From: Candidatus Nanopelagicales bacterium
GTDB lineage: Bacteria; Actinomycetota; Actinomycetes; S36-B12
DNA: 64,000 nt
Reading direction: 5' to 3'
Assembly: GCA_030827125.1 (NCBI GenBank)
Contig: JAURFD010000004.1
Location: forward strand, 124,001 to 188,000
This document shows positions 1,849-9,425 of the stretch, in pieces. The position numbers and the translations under genes are program-made. The notes below the pieces were generated by a model. It was not told the DNA's origin. It searched no databases and worked only from the letters and a program-made list of their open reading frames with translations. The stretch's first letter is position 1; every line of letters begins with the position of its first letter.

Positions 1849-2952
1849 CTAGGGAAGCGCGAAACTCCGCGCACTCCACTCGGCCCAGTCGAAGTTCCAC
1901 ATGGCCCCGGGGCCTTCATCCCAGTCGACTTCCGGGCCGGTGGTGTGCTGGATCACCGGATCGCCTTCGAAGGCGTTGTTGAAGAACCAGATCCCGTCTT
2001 CCATCGACATGTTGGTGCAGCCATGGGAGGTCGAGGCATAGCCGAGGTTGTAGAGGTTCCACGGCGCCGCATGCAGGTACTCACCACTCGGTGTCGTGCG
2101 CAAGGCATAGGGGACCATGACGTCATACGGCTCACGCGGTCCCGGGTTGACCATGCGCTTGACCTCGTAGCGCTCCAGGATCGCCTTGATTCCCGAGGTG
2201 GTCTCCCACCCCGGCTTGCCCAGGGAGACCGGCACCCTGCGGATGGTGATGCCATCACGCTTCACCTTGCCGACGAGTTTGCTGGAATTCATCTCGAAGG
2301 TGAGGGAGCGGCCAATGCGGAACTTCACCAGGGGATCGATGGTGGCCAGGTTGTGCTCGACCCAACTGAACTTGACCTTGACATCCATGTAGGACGGCCA
2401 GAATTCCGCTGGCCGGAAGGCCATGGTGCGATCATCGGGCCAACTCCACGCAGCCAGGCCCAGCGGCTTGCTTGTTTCCACGACCGCCGCCTGCTCCAAG
2501 AGCGCCTTCTGCTCGTCGGGAACGTCGTAGGCGAACTGGACGCGGATGACAATGCCAACACCGTAGAGACCCTTGGCCTCCTCGGGATACACGTCGGACA
2601 CGTACGCCGGATCGCCATCCCAGTCCAGGACATCGATGTCCGGAGTGTTCAGGCGAATCGGCTCAGCACCGAGCTGCTCCGACGACCACGCGGGGGTGAG
2701 GTCCGCCACCGCCTCCTGGACCGGTGAGGCCGGTTCGGCAGAAATCGTGCGCGGGGTGGGCGATGGAGAGGTCGTCGAGGCAACCGCGGCTGACTCGGTG
2801 AACGGCGTCGACAGGCCGAGGAAGACTCCGGCCGAGGTGACCATGAGGGCGAGCACCACGAATCCGGAGATCACCGCGACCAAGCGCAGCGATCCCCCCG
2901 TCCGGCCCTTTTGGGCGTGTCGACCCGCCACACCCCTATCTTGCCAAACCAC
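1849..2952 (-). CDS. L,D-transpeptidase (YkuD domain), membrane-anchored
   Basis: Peptidoglycan cross-linking enzyme forming 3-3 links outside the membrane. It has one N-terminal transmembrane segment (residues 24-46), a Ser/Pro/Thr-rich linker, an Ig-like middle region (about 100-190) and a C-terminal YkuD domain with the catalytic STSHGCTNMS motif (Cys about 312). The overall layout resembles mycobacterial Ldt proteins. An alternative GTG start at 2931 lies 6 nt after a possible -10 (CAAGAT, 2943-2938), which would make the mRNA leaderless; the transmembrane anchor is kept either way. It is transcribed divergently from the Lrp-type regulator. Confidence 0.9.
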   Translation of the reverse strand: MVWQDRGVAGRHAQKGRTGGSLRLVAVISGFVVLALMVTSAGVFLGLSTPFTESAAVASTTSPSPTPRTISAEPASPVQEAVADLTPAWSSEQLGAEPIRLNTPDIDVLDWDGDPAYVSDVYPEEAKGLYGVGIVIRVQFAYDVPDEQKALLEQAAVVETSKPLGLAAWSWPDDRTMAFRPAEFWPSYMDVKVKFSWVEHNLATIDPLVKFRIGRSLTFEMNSSKLVGKVKRDGITIRRVPVSLGKPGWETTSGIKAILERYEVKRMVNPGPREPYDVMVPYALRTTPSGEYLHAAPWNLYNLGYASTSHGCTNMSMEDGIWFFNNAFEGDPVIQHTTGPEVDWDEGPGAMWNFDWAEWSARSFALP

Positions 2953-3018
2953 CGATGCCGTGTGGCTGTTGGGGCCTGCGTGGCGAAGAACTTGTTACCG
3001 CACCGTGACCTTGACCGG

Positions 3019-3480
3019 ATGTGTCAGCCTTCTGGCGTGGACGATGAGATCGATCGGCGCCTGGTGACCCTGCTGGCCCGCGATGGACGACTGTCCTACG
3101 CCGAACTCGGCCGCGAGGTCGGCATGTCGACGTCGGCGGCTCACCAGCGGGTGCGCCGCCTGGAGCAGCGCGGCATCATCGCCGGCTACCGGGCGGTCAT
3201 CGATGCCCGGGCGGTCGGCCTCCCACTCACGGCGTTCATCGATCTCACTCCGCTCGACGCCTCCGCACCGGATGACATCCCGGATCGGGTCAGGGGCATC
3301 CCCGAGGTCGAGTCGTGCTGGTCAGTGGCCGGAGCAGCGTCCTACGTGCTGCGCGTCCAGGTGGGCGAACCGGCCGACCTCGAGGACCTCCTCGCGCGCA
3401 TCCGCGCAGCCGCGGCCGTCTCCACCCGCACCACGGTCGTGCTCTCCACGGCATTCGAAGGCCGTCCTCCCGCGGTGTGA
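3019..3480 (+). CDS. Lrp/AsnC-family transcriptional regulator
   Basis: Small amino-acid-responsive DNA-binding regulator. It has an N-terminal winged helix-turn-helix (DDEIDRRLVTLLARDGRLSY, then a recognition helix around MSTSAAHQRVRRLE) and a C-terminal RAM/ligand-sensing alpha-beta domain (VESCWSVAGAASYVLRV). The start is uncertain: ATG at 3019 or GTG at 3037, with no clear Shine-Dalgarno for either; the HTH begins right after 3037. It ends 8 bp from the convergent aldolase gene. Members usually autoregulate and control neighbouring amino-acid genes; the target here is unknown, with the adjacent PLP enzyme an obvious candidate (inference). Confidence 0.87.
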   Translation: MCQPSGVDDEIDRRLVTLLARDGRLSYAELGREVGMSTSAAHQRVRRLEQRGIIAGYRAVIDARAVGLPLTAFIDLTPLDASAPDDIPDRVRGIPEVESCWSVAGAASYVLRVQVGEPADLEDLLARIRAAAAVSTRTTVVLSTAFEGRPPAV

Positions 3481-3488
3481 CCCACGCT

Positions 3489-4526
3489 TTACGCCGACAT
3501 CTCCTCCGCAATCGCGGCGACGAACGCGTCGACATCCTCTGGTGTCGTGTCCCACGAACACATCCATCGCACTTCACCGGTCGCCTCATCCCAGGTGTAG
3601 AACCGGAAGCGCTCCTGCAATCGTGCGGTGACATCGGCTGGGAGGATCGCGAAGACCGCGTTGGCATCGACCCGGCGGAGGACATCGACTCCGGGTATCT
3701 CCCGAACACCACTCGCAAGCCGCTGTGCCATGTGATTGGCATGCGAGGCGTTGCGCAACCACAGGTCATCGCTGAGCAGAGCGGCCAATTGGGCGCTGAT
3801 GAAGCGCATCTTGCTCGCCAACTGCATGTCGGACTTGCGGACGAAGGGCACCGACTGGGTCAATTCGGGATTCAGCACGACGACAGCCTCGGCACCCATG
3901 GCTCCGTTCTTGGTGCCGCCGAAGGACACGGCGTCGACGCCCACGTCGGTCGTGATCGCACGGAGCGGGACGCCCAGCGACGCCGCTGCATTCGCGATGC
4001 GAGCGCCATCGAGGTGGACCCACAGTCCGTGCTCGTGGGCGCGCCGTACGAGCGCACCGAGATGCTCGACCGAGTACGCCGTGCCGAGTTCGGATGACTG
4101 CGTCACCGACAGTGCGGCCGGCTGCGCCCGGTGCACATCGCCCATGCGGTAGATCTGCGCATCGAGTTCGTCGACGGTGAGCAATCCATCACTGGTCGGG
4201 GCCAACCAGAGCTTCAGGCCAGCCACCTTCTCCGGCGCGCCGCCCTCATCCACATGGATGTGCGCGGTGTCGGTGCAGATCACGGCCTCCCAGGACCGGC
4301 ACATCGACTGCAGGGCTACGACATTGGCGCCGGTGCCGTTGAAGACCGGAAAGACCTCAGCGGACTCGCCGAAGTGGTGCCGCACCAGGTCCCGCAGCCG
4401 CGCGGTTTCCCGATCGTCGCCGTACGCGACATCGTGTCCCTCATTCGCAGCCACCATGGCCGCGAGGACCTCCGGGTGGATCCCGGCGTAGTTGTCGCTG
4501 GCGAACCCGCGCCACGTCTGGCTCAC
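3489..4526 (-). CDS. Low-specificity L-threonine aldolase-like / beta-eliminating lyase (PLP enzyme)
   Basis: Fold-type I PLP enzyme of the threonine aldolase family (threonine to glycine plus acetaldehyde). Visible features are the N-terminal FASDNYAG signature, the PLP-binding HLDGARIANA (Asp173) and the Schiff-base lysine in SFGGTKNG (Lys206). Its length of 345 aa is normal for the family. It is the last gene of an operon DUF6421-SDR-aldolase: its start is 1 bp from the SDR stop. This association suggests a dedicated pathway rather than general glycine metabolism, so the true substrate may not be threonine (inference). Confidence 0.88.
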   Translation of the reverse strand: MSQTWRGFASDNYAGIHPEVLAAMVAANEGHDVAYGDDRETARLRDLVRHHFGESAEVFPVFNGTGANVVALQSMCRSWEAVICTDTAHIHVDEGGAPEKVAGLKLWLAPTSDGLLTVDELDAQIYRMGDVHRAQPAALSVTQSSELGTAYSVEHLGALVRRAHEHGLWVHLDGARIANAAASLGVPLRAITTDVGVDAVSFGGTKNGAMGAEAVVVLNPELTQSVPFVRKSDMQLASKMRFISAQLAALLSDDLWLRNASHANHMAQRLASGVREIPGVDVLRRVDANAVFAILPADVTARLQERFRFYTWDEATGEVRWMCSWDTTPEDVDAFVAAIAEEMSA

Positions 4527-4527
4527 G

Positions 4528-5205
4528 TCACTCCTCGGTCAGGTCGACTCGCGCCCCATTGGCAACGGTGTCGCCCTCGAGTATTCCGCGGATGGCCAAA
4601 CCCAGCGCATCGACATCGGTATAGCCGGGGAAAGCACGGTCAGGCTCGGCAGCCCGCATGTCGGCGGTCACAAGGGCCTTGACGGCAACAATGACCGCGC
4701 GGGCGGAGGAGTCTGCGAACGAGTGGGCGAGGCCACCCATCCACGACTCAGCAGCCGCCTTTGCCGTCGCATAGGCGACGTTGCCCGCGGTGGGTCGGTG
4801 CGCCGCGGTACTGGAGACCATGACGTAGGCACCCTCGCTCGCCAGCAGGGCCTCGCGGAATCCCACCGACGTGACCCGCAACGTGCCGAAGACGCCGGGC
4901 GCGATCGCATTCCAGGCTGCGAGGGCATCGCGGTCCACCGAGGACGAACCCTGCCAGCCGCCCACGAGGTGAATGACGGTGTCCACCCGACCGTAGCGAG
5001 CGACGAGGTCATCGCACATCGCGGTCACGGAGTCGATATCCAGCAGGTCAGCGGTCACCGCTTCGCCCCCGATCGCGGCTGCCAGCGTCTGCGCTTTGCT
5101 GCTCCCGCGATCCACGACGACCACCTGGTGAGTGGCGGCCAAGGCTCTGGCGACACCTCCGCCACCGATGCCCGCGCCGAGGACGACGGCGACCGGGCGC
5201 GTCAT
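4528..5205 (-). CDS. SDR-family NAD(P)-dependent oxidoreductase of the DUF6421 cassette
   Basis: Short-chain dehydrogenase/reductase of 225 aa. The N-terminal Rossmann glycine motif GAGIGGGG (residues 10-17), the Ser132 region (VSSTAA) and the catalytic YATAK (Tyr145, Lys149) are present, so it should be active. The HLVGGW segment (79-84) replaces the usual NNAG. It overlaps the DUF6421 gene by 4 bp (ATGA) and is followed after 1 bp by the aldolase-like gene, so all three are probably translated from one mRNA. The substrate is unknown. Confidence 0.87.
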   Translation of the reverse strand: MTRPVAVVLGAGIGGGGVARALAATHQVVVVDRGSSKAQTLAAAIGGEAVTADLLDIDSVTAMCDDLVARYGRVDTVIHLVGGWQGSSSVDRDALAAWNAIAPGVFGTLRVTSVGFREALLASEGAYVMVSSTAAHRPTAGNVAYATAKAAAESWMGGLAHSFADSSARAVIVAVKALVTADMRAAEPDRAFPGYTDVDALGLAIRGILEGDTVANGARVDLTEE

Positions 5206-7280
5206 GCGGCAGTCCCGGTGATCCCCCGCGTGGACTCGACCGTGTCCGCGAGGGCCTTGCGCAGGGACTCGTAGAAGACGTTGAGCGGGAACTCATCCGG
5301 CAGAACGGCGTCAACGACGGCCCGCGGCTCCTCCGGCAACTCCTGAGCGCCACGGGACCACGTCGACTGCGGGTGCGGCGGCACCAGCGCACTGACGAAC
5401 TCATAGGCCGCGAGCCAGTGGCCGAGACGGGAACGATCAATGCCTTCGCGATAGAGCCTCTCCACCTCATCGCACAGGTCATTCATCGCCGGTTGCACAC
5501 CACGCCAATCGACCCGCAGCGTGTTGTCCGTCCATCGGATCACACCGCGACGATGCAGCCAGGCGAAGACGATCTGTCCAGCGAGGCCGTCGTAGTTGCG
5601 CACACGATCACCGGTAGTGGGGAAGCGAAACAGTCGATCGAAGAGGATGCCGATGCGCACGTACGGTGCGAGAACGACACCGGACTGCTCAAGCTTCTCA
5701 GTCTCCCGGAAGGTCGCCAGGTCGCAGCGGAGCTCCTCCAGGGCGTACATCCAGTAGGGCATTCGCTGCTTGATCATGAAGGGGTCAAAGGGGAGGTCAC
5801 CGTGGCTGTGCGTCCGGTCATGGACCAGATCCCACAGCACGAAGGTCTCCTGCGCGAGGCGCTGATCACGGAGCAGCATCTCGGCCTCCGGCGGCAGCGC
5901 CAACTGAAGCCGGTCCGCAGCAGCCCGCGAAACGCGACGGAATCGGGCTGCCTCACGATCGCAGAAGATGCCGCCCCAACTGAAGGCGACGGTCTCCCGC
6001 GTGGCAACAGTCTCAGGGAAGAGGACAGCGGAGTGGGTGTCGTAGCCGGAGGTGAAGCCGAGGAATTCAATCGGGACGAACGCGGCATTGTCATACGACG
6101 TGCGCTCAAGTTCGGCGATCCACTCCGGCCATACGGTGCGGATCGCCACTGCCTCGACCTGACGATTCGGATTGCCGTTCTGGGTGTACATCGGGAAGAC
6201 GGCAACATGCTCGACGCCGTCGCGTCGGTCGAGTTCGGGGTGGAACAGGCGCAGGGAATCTAGGAAGTCCGGGACGCCGAGTCCGGCGTCGCGCCAACGG
6301 GTGAAGTCCTGAACACATGCCTGCAGATAGTCGGCCTGGTGTGGAACGACTTGTTCAAGATCGGTCAACGCGGACGTGATTTCCGCGAGCGCTTGTTCGG
6401 CGACATCACGATCGCCGACGACCGAGCCATCCTTCGCCTGCTGCTCGCGCAGCTCCTCGACGGCCGTCGTCAGCGACGCCCACGCGGGACTGGCCGTGAT
6501 AGTGCTCTCGCAGGGGACTGCTCGATGGGCCGCTGGGCCCGCGGCCGTCCAGGTGACGAGTTGCTGCCAGAGACGGGCGTGGTCGAGGTCACCGATGGAG
6601 TCGTCACCAACGAAGTCGGAGTCCGCGGTCACGGCAACACGTCCCGCGCCGGCCTCGACGCCGGCGATGACGGGCGCGAGGGCCGGCGCCGCAGTGTCGG
6701 AGGTGCGGGCGAAGACGTGGGAATCGGCCGGCACCTTGAGATAGCCGGCTCGATAGACACAAGCGGCTTCGACACCGGCGAAGATGTCACTCCCACCCGC
6801 CGCCCCGAACTCCAGCAGCGGCCAGGTCGAGACGTCGTTGAATCGATGGATCGGATCCTGGACCGTGGCATTGACCACTTCGACGCCGAAGCGCTGTGCG
6901 ATGACGTCGAGATTGTTGCCGTACTTCGCCTGCTCGGTCTCCGCGAGAATGACCAGGCCGCCGCCCTGGCGCACGAAATTTTCGATGGTGGCGATCTCGG
7001 TGTCGGCGTACCAGGGGTCACCCTCGCCGACCGTGGCCTCCCACTCGTCGGTGGAGCAGTGCGGCAGCACCAGCACGTCCACGTCGGCCAACGTCACAGC
7101 CGTAATCGGGCCGGACACATGCGCATCCACCGAGCACCCCGCGGTCCGCAGGCGTTGTGCTGCCACGACGTAGGAGGAGTCCGCGGGGTTCGCCGGACTC
7201 ATGAGGGCGGCCACATCGGCGCGAGTAGACCAGGCCTGACGGTGACTCTCGTCGACGAGGACACGCAGGAGGGGACGCAT
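5202..7280 (-). CDS. DUF6421 family protein with N-terminal glutamine-amidotransferase-like domain
   Basis: The first about 270 residues look like a class-I-glutaminase/ThuA-like fold (VLVLPHCSTDEW, ENFVRQGGGLVILAE, then RVAVTADSDFVGDD). The rest matches the uncharacterised DUF6421 family as I remember it (FPMYTQNGNPN, GYDTHSAVLFPETVA). It carries a His-rich HDRTHSHGDLPFD motif (His487, His491, His493) that could bind metal. I chose the ATG at 7280 because AGGAG lies 5 nt upstream; a GTG 6 nt earlier is possible. It heads the operon with the SDR and aldolase-like genes. Function is unknown; the family is typically nearer 450 aa, so the N-terminal domain may be an added module. Confidence 0.8.
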   Translation of the reverse strand: MRPLLRVLVDESHRQAWSTRADVAALMSPANPADSSYVVAAQRLRTAGCSVDAHVSGPITAVTLADVDVLVLPHCSTDEWEATVGEGDPWYADTEIATIENFVRQGGGLVILAETEQAKYGNNLDVIAQRFGVEVVNATVQDPIHRFNDVSTWPLLEFGAAGGSDIFAGVEAACVYRAGYLKVPADSHVFARTSDTAAPALAPVIAGVEAGAGRVAVTADSDFVGDDSIGDLDHARLWQQLVTWTAAGPAAHRAVPCESTITASPAWASLTTAVEELREQQAKDGSVVGDRDVAEQALAEITSALTDLEQVVPHQADYLQACVQDFTRWRDAGLGVPDFLDSLRLFHPELDRRDGVEHVAVFPMYTQNGNPNRQVEAVAIRTVWPEWIAELERTSYDNAAFVPIEFLGFTSGYDTHSAVLFPETVATRETVAFSWGGIFCDREAARFRRVSRAAADRLQLALPPEAEMLLRDQRLAQETFVLWDLVHDRTHSHGDLPFDPFMIKQRMPYWMYALEELRCDLATFRETEKLEQSGVVLAPYVRIGILFDRLFRFPTTGDRVRNYDGLAGQIVFAWLHRRGVIRWTDNTLRVDWRGVQPAMNDLCDEVERLYREGIDRSRLGHWLAAYEFVSALVPPHPQSTWSRGAQELPEEPRAVVDAVLPDEFPLNVFYESLRKALADTVESTRGITGTAA

Positions 7281-7337
7281 GAGCACTCCTAGAAAGAGGG
7301 AATGTCCGAAATTCTAGGGGTAATCAGGAGGATCATT

Positions 7338-7357
7338 GGACTACGGGGCAATAGTCC
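7338..7357. promoter_or_regulatory. Operator-like palindrome upstream of the DUF6421 operon
   Basis: Perfect inverted repeat GGACTA-N8-TAGTCC about 58 bp upstream of the DUF6421 start. A possible -10 (TAGAAT on the minus strand, near 7317-7312) lies between the palindrome and the gene, so a bound protein could act near the -35 region. The symmetry is seen directly; the role as an operator is inference. Confidence 0.4.
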
Positions 7358-7416
7358 GTAATATTTCCTGTCCTCCCATGACCTGACCTCCTACCCGCCC
7401 ACTGCACACCGTACGA

Positions 7417-7439
7417 TTTCCGACCGTTGTGGTTGCTTC
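7417..7439 (+). repeat. Dispersed 23-bp repeat, solo copy
   Basis: TTTCCGACCG followed by TTGTGGTTGCTTC. It matches 57856-57878 at 21 of 23 positions and, inverted, 57894-57911 at 16 of 18. It lies in the 247-bp gap between the DUF6421 operon and the lipoprotein gene. The CGACCG at its start can pair with CGGTCG just downstream to form a 6-bp hairpin. Confidence 0.5.
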
Positions 7440-8018: not shown

Positions 8019-9425
8019 TCACGTCCCGTGCGGCGTCGCGGGCCATGGCATGGCCTGCTCCAGTTCGAGAGCGATCGACAACAGCCGCGCCTCCTCACCG
8101 CGCGGAGCGCCCACCTGGACGCCGATCGGCAGTCCCTGGTCCGTGCGCGCCAAGGGCAGGGAGATCGCTGGCGCGCCGGTGACATTCTGCAGAGCGGTGA
8201 ACGAAGCGAATTGCAGGATGCGCACCAGTTGATCGTGCACCGGGACGTCAGGTCCGAGGCGGCCGATGGGCGGGGCCGGATGCGACACCACCGGAGACAC
8301 CACCACGTCGAAGCGTTCGTAGATCTCCTCCGGCTCGGCAGCAACGCGCTTGAGTCGACGGATGCTGCCGGGCACTCGGGCTGCCTGCTGCACGAACATC
8401 GAACTCAAGCCCTTGGTCAGCGTCTCGGTCTGCTTGCCGTCGAATCCCTTGCCGAAGATACGGGCGCCCGTCTTTTGCATCATGAAGGACAGGAAGGCCC
8501 AGTAGCGCAGGAAGTCACGACCGAACTGCTCGTCCAGATAGGGCGGAATCTCTTCGACCTCGTGGCCGAGGGCCTCCAGGGTGCGCCCGGCCGCGAGGAC
8601 GGCCTGGCACGTCTGCTCCTCGACCGCCAGCCCCGGCACCCCCTCGGTCATGACCGCGACGCGCAGTCGAGTCCGATCGGGTCGCACCACCATGCCAACC
8701 GCGGGCAGATCCGGATTGGTGAATCTGCGCTCGGACTCGGCGAAGAAGTACGCCGTATCCCGCACTGAGCGGGTGAGCACGCCTTGATTGACGATGTGGA
8801 TAGGCAGCGATTCCAGGTCGGCGCGATCGGGGAAGCGGCCCCGGGTCGGCTTCAAGCCGACGAGCCCGCACAGGGCTGCGGGGATGCGGATGGAGCCACC
8901 GCCGTCGTTCGCGTGAGCGATGGGCAGTGCGCCGGAGGCCACCAGCGCCGCCGAGCCACCACTCGATCCGCCGGTGGAGTGCCCCACATTCCAGGGGTTG
9001 CGTGTCGCACCGTACGTCGTGGACTCAGTGGTCGGCGTGAGACCGAACTCGGGCAGCGTCGTCTTGACCAGAGGATCGAATCCGAGGCCGCGGAAGTGGG
9101 CAACAAAAGGCATGTCCTGGCCAGCCAGGGTGCTCGGTGTCGCCGCGGAACCGTGTCTCGTGGGGTAGCCGGTGAGGTCCTGGTTGTCCTTCACGGCGGT
9201 GGGAATGCCGCGGAAAGGACCCTCAGTTGCCGGATCGAGATCAACATCGCACACGACCGGGTTCAGGTCACCGGTAGCCGCTGCGATCCGGGCACGGGCC
9301 GACTCCCGCAACTCGCCTGCTGACACCTCGCGACGCGTGAGCCGGTGCAGCAACTCCATGACGTCGTCGCTGCCCAGGGCGTCATCGGCGCGGACATCGA
9401 CCTGCACTTTGCTTCGGGACTCCAC
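8019..9425 (-). CDS. Amidase (amidase signature family)
   Basis: 468-aa serine amidase hydrolysing carbon-nitrogen amide bonds. The Ser-cisSer-Lys triad is visible: Lys79 in AVKDN, the glycine/serine-rich GGSSGGS (152-158) and the nucleophile in GGGSIRIP (Ser178). Substrate is not predictable; the family includes aryl-acylamidases, 6-aminohexanoate hydrolases and GatA-like enzymes, and no gatB/gatC lies nearby, so it is not the tRNA amidotransferase subunit. The GTG start at 9425 is preceded by TACGCT (9437-9432) with a 6-nt gap and no Shine-Dalgarno, so it looks leaderless. Confidence 0.9.

Follow-up and report, generated by a model that had tools for sequence, protein, structure and literature searches.

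A conserved actinobacterial operon joining a predicted PolE-type DUF6421 oxidase, a dihydropteridine-reductase-like SDR and a threonine-aldolase-type enzyme: a candidate amino-acid oxidation module

In a stretch of 64,000 nt from a Candidatus Nanopelagicales bacterium (hereafter the window, to whose positions all operon coordinates refer), we analyzed a three-gene operon encoding a DUF6421 protein, a short-chain dehydrogenase/reductase (SDR) and a pyridoxal 5'-phosphate (PLP) enzyme of the threonine aldolase type. The three genes recur in the same order across several lineages, and we give about an even chance to their forming a small amino-acid oxidation module, in which the DUF6421 protein would oxidize an amino acid, the SDR would recycle the pterin cofactor and the aldolase would handle the product.

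The genes are read from the minus strand in the order DUF6421, SDR, PLP enzyme, as confirmed by an open reading frame (ORF) check:

5202..7280, minus strand: DUF6421 protein, 692 aa from the ATG at 7280 (ORF; PF19985, E 1e-197; start codon; model and Foldseek)
4528..5205, minus strand: SDR, 225 aa, proposed quinonoid-dihydropteridine-reductase-like pterin recycler (substrate-half profile; GGW motif; co-occurrence with DUF6421)
3489..4526, minus strand: PLP enzyme of the threonine/phenylserine aldolase type, 345 aa (PF01212; 5vye, E 1e-84; 103 loci)

The initial annotation had described three tightly coupled genes at 3489-7280, and the ORFs, the 4-bp overlap between the DUF6421 and SDR genes and the single base pair separating the SDR and PLP genes were all recovered as claimed. 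Position 7280 also holds as the DUF6421 start, with AGGAG upstream of the ATG at 7290-7286 and relatives that begin with MRPL at the same point; DUF6421 residue numbers given here count from the GTG at 7286, numbering from the ATG being lower by two. The Pfam scores were 657 bits for PF19985 (curated cut-off 25 bits), 69 bits for adh_short in the SDR and 197 bits for Beta_elim_lyase in the PLP enzyme. The source genome measures 2.6 Mb in 82 contigs, and the closest named DUF6421 locus, at 83% identity, is that of a Candidatus Nanopelagicales metagenome-assembled genome.

Profile, motif and model comparisons make a strong case for predicting the DUF6421 protein to be a PolE-type Fe/pterin oxidase. 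PolE, which acts in polyoxin biosynthesis, is a DUF6421 protein and an L-isoleucine desaturase with a strict requirement for Fe(II), O2 and tetrahydrobiopterin (Nature Chemistry, October 2025, PMC12614342). According to the same study, its activity is boosted 2-3 fold in vitro by quinonoid dihydropteridine reductase (QDPR), and HE/DxxHx(21-23)E is proposed as its Fe and pterin site; the homologues number about 10,000, many adjoin other amino-acid-modifying enzymes, and the authors infer unusual amino-acid pathways around DUF6421 (PMC12614342). The corresponding features of the window protein are:

5211..6488, minus strand: PF19985 (DUF6421) catalytic domain (whole-genome hidden Markov model match G000:C44:129211-130488; profile to SnPolE, E 4e-87)
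5736..5822, minus strand: predicted Fe site HDRTH-x23-E (H489, H493, E517; invariant in relatives; PolE motif)
6537..7280, minus strand: N-terminal class-I-GATase-like domain of the GIFT/ThuA-like kind (weak DUF4350 match; Foldseek; alignment)

The metal motif, H489-D-R-T-H493-x23-E517, is invariant in 111/111 relatives. Out of His487, His491 and His493, which had been singled out earlier in a numbering from the ATG, the first two stood as conserved metal ligands, but the last is variable (R, M or T in relatives), and a conserved Glu, E515 when counted from the ATG and E517 from the GTG, is instead the third ligand. When the family profile was run against the PDB, the SnPolE structures were matched at the E value listed above. 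In Foldseek, the model predicted for the protein (mean pLDDT 88) had SnPolE and SmPolE, in entries titled Fe2+/pterin-dependent, at PDB ranks 1-6 (TMt 0.77-0.81). Two SnPolE residues that were mutated in solved variants, F140 and Y280, correspond to F423 and Y565, invariant in the window family, while Y157, mutated in the L-Ile complex, is replaced by an equally invariant I440. With the former two kept and the latter changed, the window family probably has the cofactor site of SnPolE but a substrate pocket of its own. Pterin use by the window protein appears very probable. No Biopterin_H (PF00351) domain was matched in it, and a phage-family search with it gave no match.

The N-terminal domain (about residues 3-250) found the N-terminal domain of IFT52 in Foldseek (TMt 0.68-0.80), together with ThuA-like proteins. 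It is present in Nanopelagicales, Streptosporangiaceae and Thermoleophilia and absent from the approximately 465-aa DUF6421 copies of Streptomyces. The bacterial domain thus resembles part of a cilium protein.

Among solved structures, the PLP enzyme best matches L-threonine aldolases, 5vye first, followed by 1v72 and others, and it retains their aligned active-site residues:

3909..3911, minus strand: PLP lysine K206 in GGTKNG (kept in 103/103; 5vye has this motif at the aligned position)

The lysine said earlier to be intact is accompanied by H89, H132, D173 and R176, likewise in 103/103, and by R320 in 102/102, all of which match the solved enzyme. From these residues, a retro-aldol activity on beta-hydroxy-alpha-amino acids is predicted. 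The enzyme is not a member of NCBIfam NF041359 (GntG), for which it scored 107 bits against a cut-off of 230. Substrates of the threonine-aldolase family are beta-hydroxy-alpha-amino acids and, since PolE introduces its double bond at the beta carbon (C3-C4), the DUF6421 enzymes of the trio would be expected to make or use beta-hydroxylated amino acids.

Conservation was assessed in a phylum sample of 296 Actinobacteria-wide genomes and in a comparison of 33 loci, taken with flanks of up to 8 kb, and 80 named loci. The latter are the best 80 of 570 and hence biased toward the query, the phylum sample being less so. DUF6421 was present in 15/296 genomes of the phylum sample and in 10/11 genomes of the window's genus. 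Downstream sequence of 2.3 kb or more was available for 74 named loci, of which 61 had the complete trio, 11 missed an intact SDR nearby and two had no aldolase within 3 kb, making the aldolase the most constant neighbor (72/74). Another 25 complete trios came from the window and the remaining loci, and the order DUF6421-SDR-aldolase was identical in 86/86. In the phylum sample, the SDR was found in 16/16 full-length DUF6421 loci and the aldolase within 3 kb in about 12. Among the lineages with trios are Streptomyces, Streptosporangiaceae, Nanopelagicales, Tsukamurella and Thermoleophilia, and the outer neighbors differ between them. The Streptomyces trio, which the initial annotation had mentioned, is real, as it occurs in 8/8 phylum-sample genomes of one family (f3) as well as in named Streptomyces loci. 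The tabulation of SDR and aldolase neighbors within 3 kb of DUF6421 homologues that it had suggested turned out non-random, and an amino-acid-type PLP enzyme is indeed coupled to a redox step in a conserved cassette. This conservation far exceeds chance; the three genes form a real conserved unit. Genome G008 carries DUF6421 twice (L038 and L039), one locus having the full trio and the other DUF6421 and SDR only.

The SDR is the member of the trio on which the proposed function turns. Its assignment as dihydropteridine reductase (DHPR)-like is good but unproven, and comes from motifs and from the substrate half of the protein (about residues 70-225):

4948..4968, minus strand: LVGGWQG motif (W84), common to dihydropteridine reductases (alignment to 8b5t/8b5u/3orf)
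4759..4773, minus strand: SDR catalytic YxxxK (Y145, K149; kept in 97/97)

A substrate-half profile was made from 13 of 16 diverse trio SDRs, leaving out one run-on, one short sequence and one not linked to DUF6421. Against the PDB, its ranks 1-7 were seven DHPR chains (8b5t, 8b5u, 3orf, 1dhr, 9dtw, 1hdr and 1ooe), at 52 to 41 bits. A search with the single window sequence over the same region placed 8b5t, 8b5u and 3orf at ranks 1-3, with 1dhr, 9dtw, 1hdr and 1ooe among its 27 matches, and a control run in the same way with a FabG-like SDR from the source genome had no DHPR in its best 60. Among the 97 readable family members, VGG is kept in 97/97, the W of GGW, which sits after the fourth strand, in 96/97, and both Y145 and K149 in all. 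The position of the catalytic Ser is occupied by Ala in 60, Ser in 31 and Thr in three. Mammalian DHPR has Trp86, Tyr146, Lys150 and Ala133 at the corresponding positions. An Asp follows beta2 in 81/95 readable members, which is the mark of an NADH-type SDR. GGW is absent from all other SDRs in the source genome that could be aligned at the motif position.

The family also follows DUF6421 across genomes. In the phylum sample, it was detected in 15/15 DUF6421-positive and 8/281 DUF6421-negative genomes (Fisher p 8e-20); in a sample of relatives, it was detected in 16/17 positive (in one of the 16 only as contig-end fragments) and 4/82 negative genomes. The DHPR-like substrate half, the GGW motif, the co-occurrence with DUF6421 and the stimulation of PolE by QDPR make pterin recycling the most parsimonious role for the SDR, and we regard this role as fairly probable.

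Several observations weigh against it. In the substrate-half profile search, the weakest DHPR leads the best non-DHPR SDR by just 0.1 bit. Searches with the full-length sequence and profile gave assorted SDRs, and the model (pLDDT 95) was equally unspecific in Foldseek, with no DHPR among the best matches listed for the full-length profile or the model; this would be expected if the common NAD-binding half dominates such searches. The window SDR itself retains the catalytic Ser. SDR-aldolase pairs occur without DUF6421 in three genomes (L218 5065-6833, L219 7710-9469 and L265 1021-2780), in two of which (L219 and L265) GGY replaces GGW, and these pairs bear on whether the SDR has a role independent of the oxygenase. 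Conversely, DUF6421 and aldolase occur without an intact SDR in the 11 named loci mentioned above, one of which (L135) has SDR fragments, and in L065, and no close SDR was found elsewhere in the genomes concerned. Such an absence is tolerable, since PolE is active without QDPR in vitro. Stand-alone LVGGWxGG SDRs with neither DUF6421 nor aldolase nearby were found in other Actinobacteria (L258, L259, L260, L262 and L263), and are possibly, judging by the motif, further uncharacterized bacterial dihydropteridine reductases. With regard to pterin supply, 6-pyruvoyltetrahydropterin synthase (PTPS) of biopterin synthesis was not found in the source genome, and order-wide only two genomes have it. 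Pterin-4a-carbinolamine dehydratase (PCD) was considered as a partner of DUF6421 and rejected, as it is present in the source genome and in 68/99 relatives irrespective of DUF6421. An aromatic amino-acid hydroxylase as an alternative user of the DHPR was rejected as well: the source genome has none, and the five relatives that have one lack an adjoining GGW SDR.

Many of these points would be accommodated if the SDR instead worked on the carbon substrate of the pathway, either by oxidizing a beta-hydroxy amino acid or by reducing the aldehyde that the aldolase sets free, its DHPR-like half then reflecting ancestry. The pairs without DUF6421, the genomes with DUF6421 and no SDR, and the generic SDRs returned by full-length sequence and fold searches are all compatible with this, as is the Ser of 31/97 members. 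The initial annotation had called the catalytic residues intact, and in the window Ser-Tyr-Lys indeed is, although the Ser is not kept family-wide. It is this variability that speaks for the pterin, as most members have Ala at the position of the catalytic Ser and yet a near-invariant Trp in GGW; moreover, the substrate-half profile picks out DHPRs, and the family is found in every sampled DUF6421-positive genome. We consider a role on the carbon substrate unlikely, though it is the strongest of the alternatives.

If the SDR recycles pterin, the module may work as follows. The DUF6421 protein would hold Fe(II) by two His and one Glu, and tetrahydropterin and O2 would generate an oxidizing iron species, which would attack the side chain of a free L-amino acid. 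The result could be desaturation or beta-hydroxylation, the latter being judged likelier because of the aldolase gene next door. The DHPR-like SDR would use NADH to convert the spent quinonoid dihydropterin back to tetrahydropterin, and the aldolase would either split the beta-hydroxy amino acid into glycine and an aldehyde or run backwards, building the substrate of DUF6421. Hydroxylation as the outcome, the direction and the substrate are together put forward tentatively, at somewhat below even chances, and the product of PolE, which is desaturated and not hydroxylated, counts against this scheme.

Run in the building direction, the same enzymes would constitute a biosynthetic module, where the aldolase joins glycine and an aldehyde and DUF6421 then oxidizes or desaturates the product to an unusual amino acid, serving as a signal or building block. 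The role of PolE in polyoxin biosynthesis and the unusual amino-acid pathways inferred by its authors (PMC12614342) are in line with this, and so is a PolE-like gene that has non-ribosomal peptide synthetase (NRPS) and halogenase genes beside it. However, in the annotated clusters no NRPS, ligase or export gene recurs near the trio, and both the Lrp-type regulator and the occurrence in small genomes would better suit primary metabolism, making a biosynthetic role rather unlikely. The PolE-like locus just mentioned (L050 7851-8972), in which the halogenase-type gene is of the tryptophan kind, probably encodes a further pathway of unusual amino acids as part of a natural-product cluster.

The initial annotation had regarded DUF6421 as of unknown function and perhaps a metal-dependent hydrolase. 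A peptidase related to dipeptidyl peptidase III (DPP III) would be one such enzyme, and a distant fold similarity to DPP III does exist, but the HExxGH of that enzyme is absent and replaced by HDRTH, PolE has been shown to be an oxidase (PMC12614342), and SnPolE structures are nearer than DPP III in Foldseek, leaving a hydrolase very improbable. Still less can be said for three unrelated housekeeping genes, adjacent by chance or vertical descent, which the possibility of separate occurrence alone favors and which the same order in all 86 trios, across lineages with different flanks, and the tracking of DUF6421 by the SDR contradict.

Outside the trio, two regions flank the operon:

7281..7428, minus strand: upstream region with the AGGAG ribosome-binding site at 7290-7286 and the presumed promoter (start-codon and upstream comparison)
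2911..3480, plus strand: Lrp/AsnC-family regulator, convergent neighbor (PF13404 and PF01037)

No sigma-70-type promoter was matched in the upstream region. The Lrp/AsnC gene is a probable amino-acid-responsive regulator of the operon. Lrp-type genes were found near DUF6421 in 14 loci, either convergent, divergent or within the operon replacing the SDR, and this varied placement fits control by an amino acid. The last arrangement, with the regulator between DUF6421 and aldolase, is seen in L065 (6428-9404), L092, L102, L103 and L104. Upstream of DUF6421, a pair of GGA-N(5-6)-TCCGG-like repeats with a spacing of about 32 bp occurs in the genus relatives L057, L059 and L060 and, in degenerate form, in the upstream region of the window; from their sequence they are a possible candidate for an Lrp-type operator. 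The operon is preceded by an amidase gene (window 8019-9425), which adjoins it in nine loci of the genus and was not seen further out. The outer neighbors in Streptomyces (GDPD, acyltransferase, GNAT and transglutaminase-like) and in Streptosporangiaceae (DUF3105, DUF305 and a response regulator) were discarded as clues to the substrate, as they look unrelated and vary by lineage.

The operon had been proposed as an undescribed system. For the oxygenase family this does not hold, as it was described in October 2025 (PMC12614342), whereas the trio as a unit was not found described: no description of its SDR as a dihydropteridine reductase, or of the three genes together, was encountered, and a full-text search for DUF6421 returned PMC12614342 only, supplements aside. 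What is new here is the probable dihydropteridine reductase identity of the SDR, together with the testable model that follows from it. We know of no characterized DUF6421 type other than PolE. Should the SDR recycle pterin, it would explain how DUF6421 enzymes are powered in the cell and support pterin use family-wide; it would also imply a new amino-acid pathway for Streptomyces, Streptosporangiaceae and uncultured actinobacteria, testable with three purified proteins. The GGW motif further suggests a criterion by which a class of SDRs now annotated as "generic" could be reassigned. The fullest version of the model is a widespread actinobacterial route of amino-acid degradation or salvage, in which a PolE-type oxygenase with its dedicated DHPR, the first operon-encoded recycler for DUF6421, beta-hydroxylates a proteinogenic amino acid with a pterin other than biopterin and a dedicated aldolase releases glycine and an aldehyde; in this specific form we hold it to be doubtful.

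Among known systems, PolE (PDB 9J2E, 9J2R, 9J30, 9J33 and 9J3G) shares with the window protein PF19985, the metal motif, the fold and the equivalents of F140 and Y280. The window DUF6421 is, however, only 22% identical to the one PolE-like protein sampled, has the added N-terminal GIFT/ThuA-like domain and I440 for SnPolE Y157, and is partnered by SDR and aldolase, where PolE has PolF. The SDR resembles DHPR (8B5T, 8B5U, 1DHR, 1HDR, 3ORF, 1OOE and 9DTW) in GGW after beta4, YxxxK and a match over the full length of the substrate half, but its Rossmann half is nearer to generic bacterial SDRs, one third of its family has Ser at the catalytic position, and it is bacterial, operon-encoded and known here by sequence. 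Aromatic amino-acid hydroxylases (PF00351) with PCD and DHPR are likewise Fe/pterin amino-acid oxygenases with pterin recycling, although they belong to a family unrelated to DUF6421 and have no representative in the source genome. In guanitoxin biosynthesis, GntD, an alpha-ketoglutarate-type iron oxygenase, acts before GntG. The latter is the PLP enzyme that carries out the retro-aldol step (PMC10367076). The likeness to this pair is one of logic, in that a PLP retro-aldolase takes over the beta-hydroxylated amino acid after an iron oxygenase, but GntD is of another oxygenase family and uses no pterin. Lastly, the low-specificity L-threonine/phenylserine aldolases (PF01212; 5VYE, 7W0I and 1V72) agree with the window enzyme as fold type I PLP lyases with an alignable active site and the GGTKNG lysine, from which the window enzyme differs by its fixed place in the operon, after DUF6421 and the SDR.

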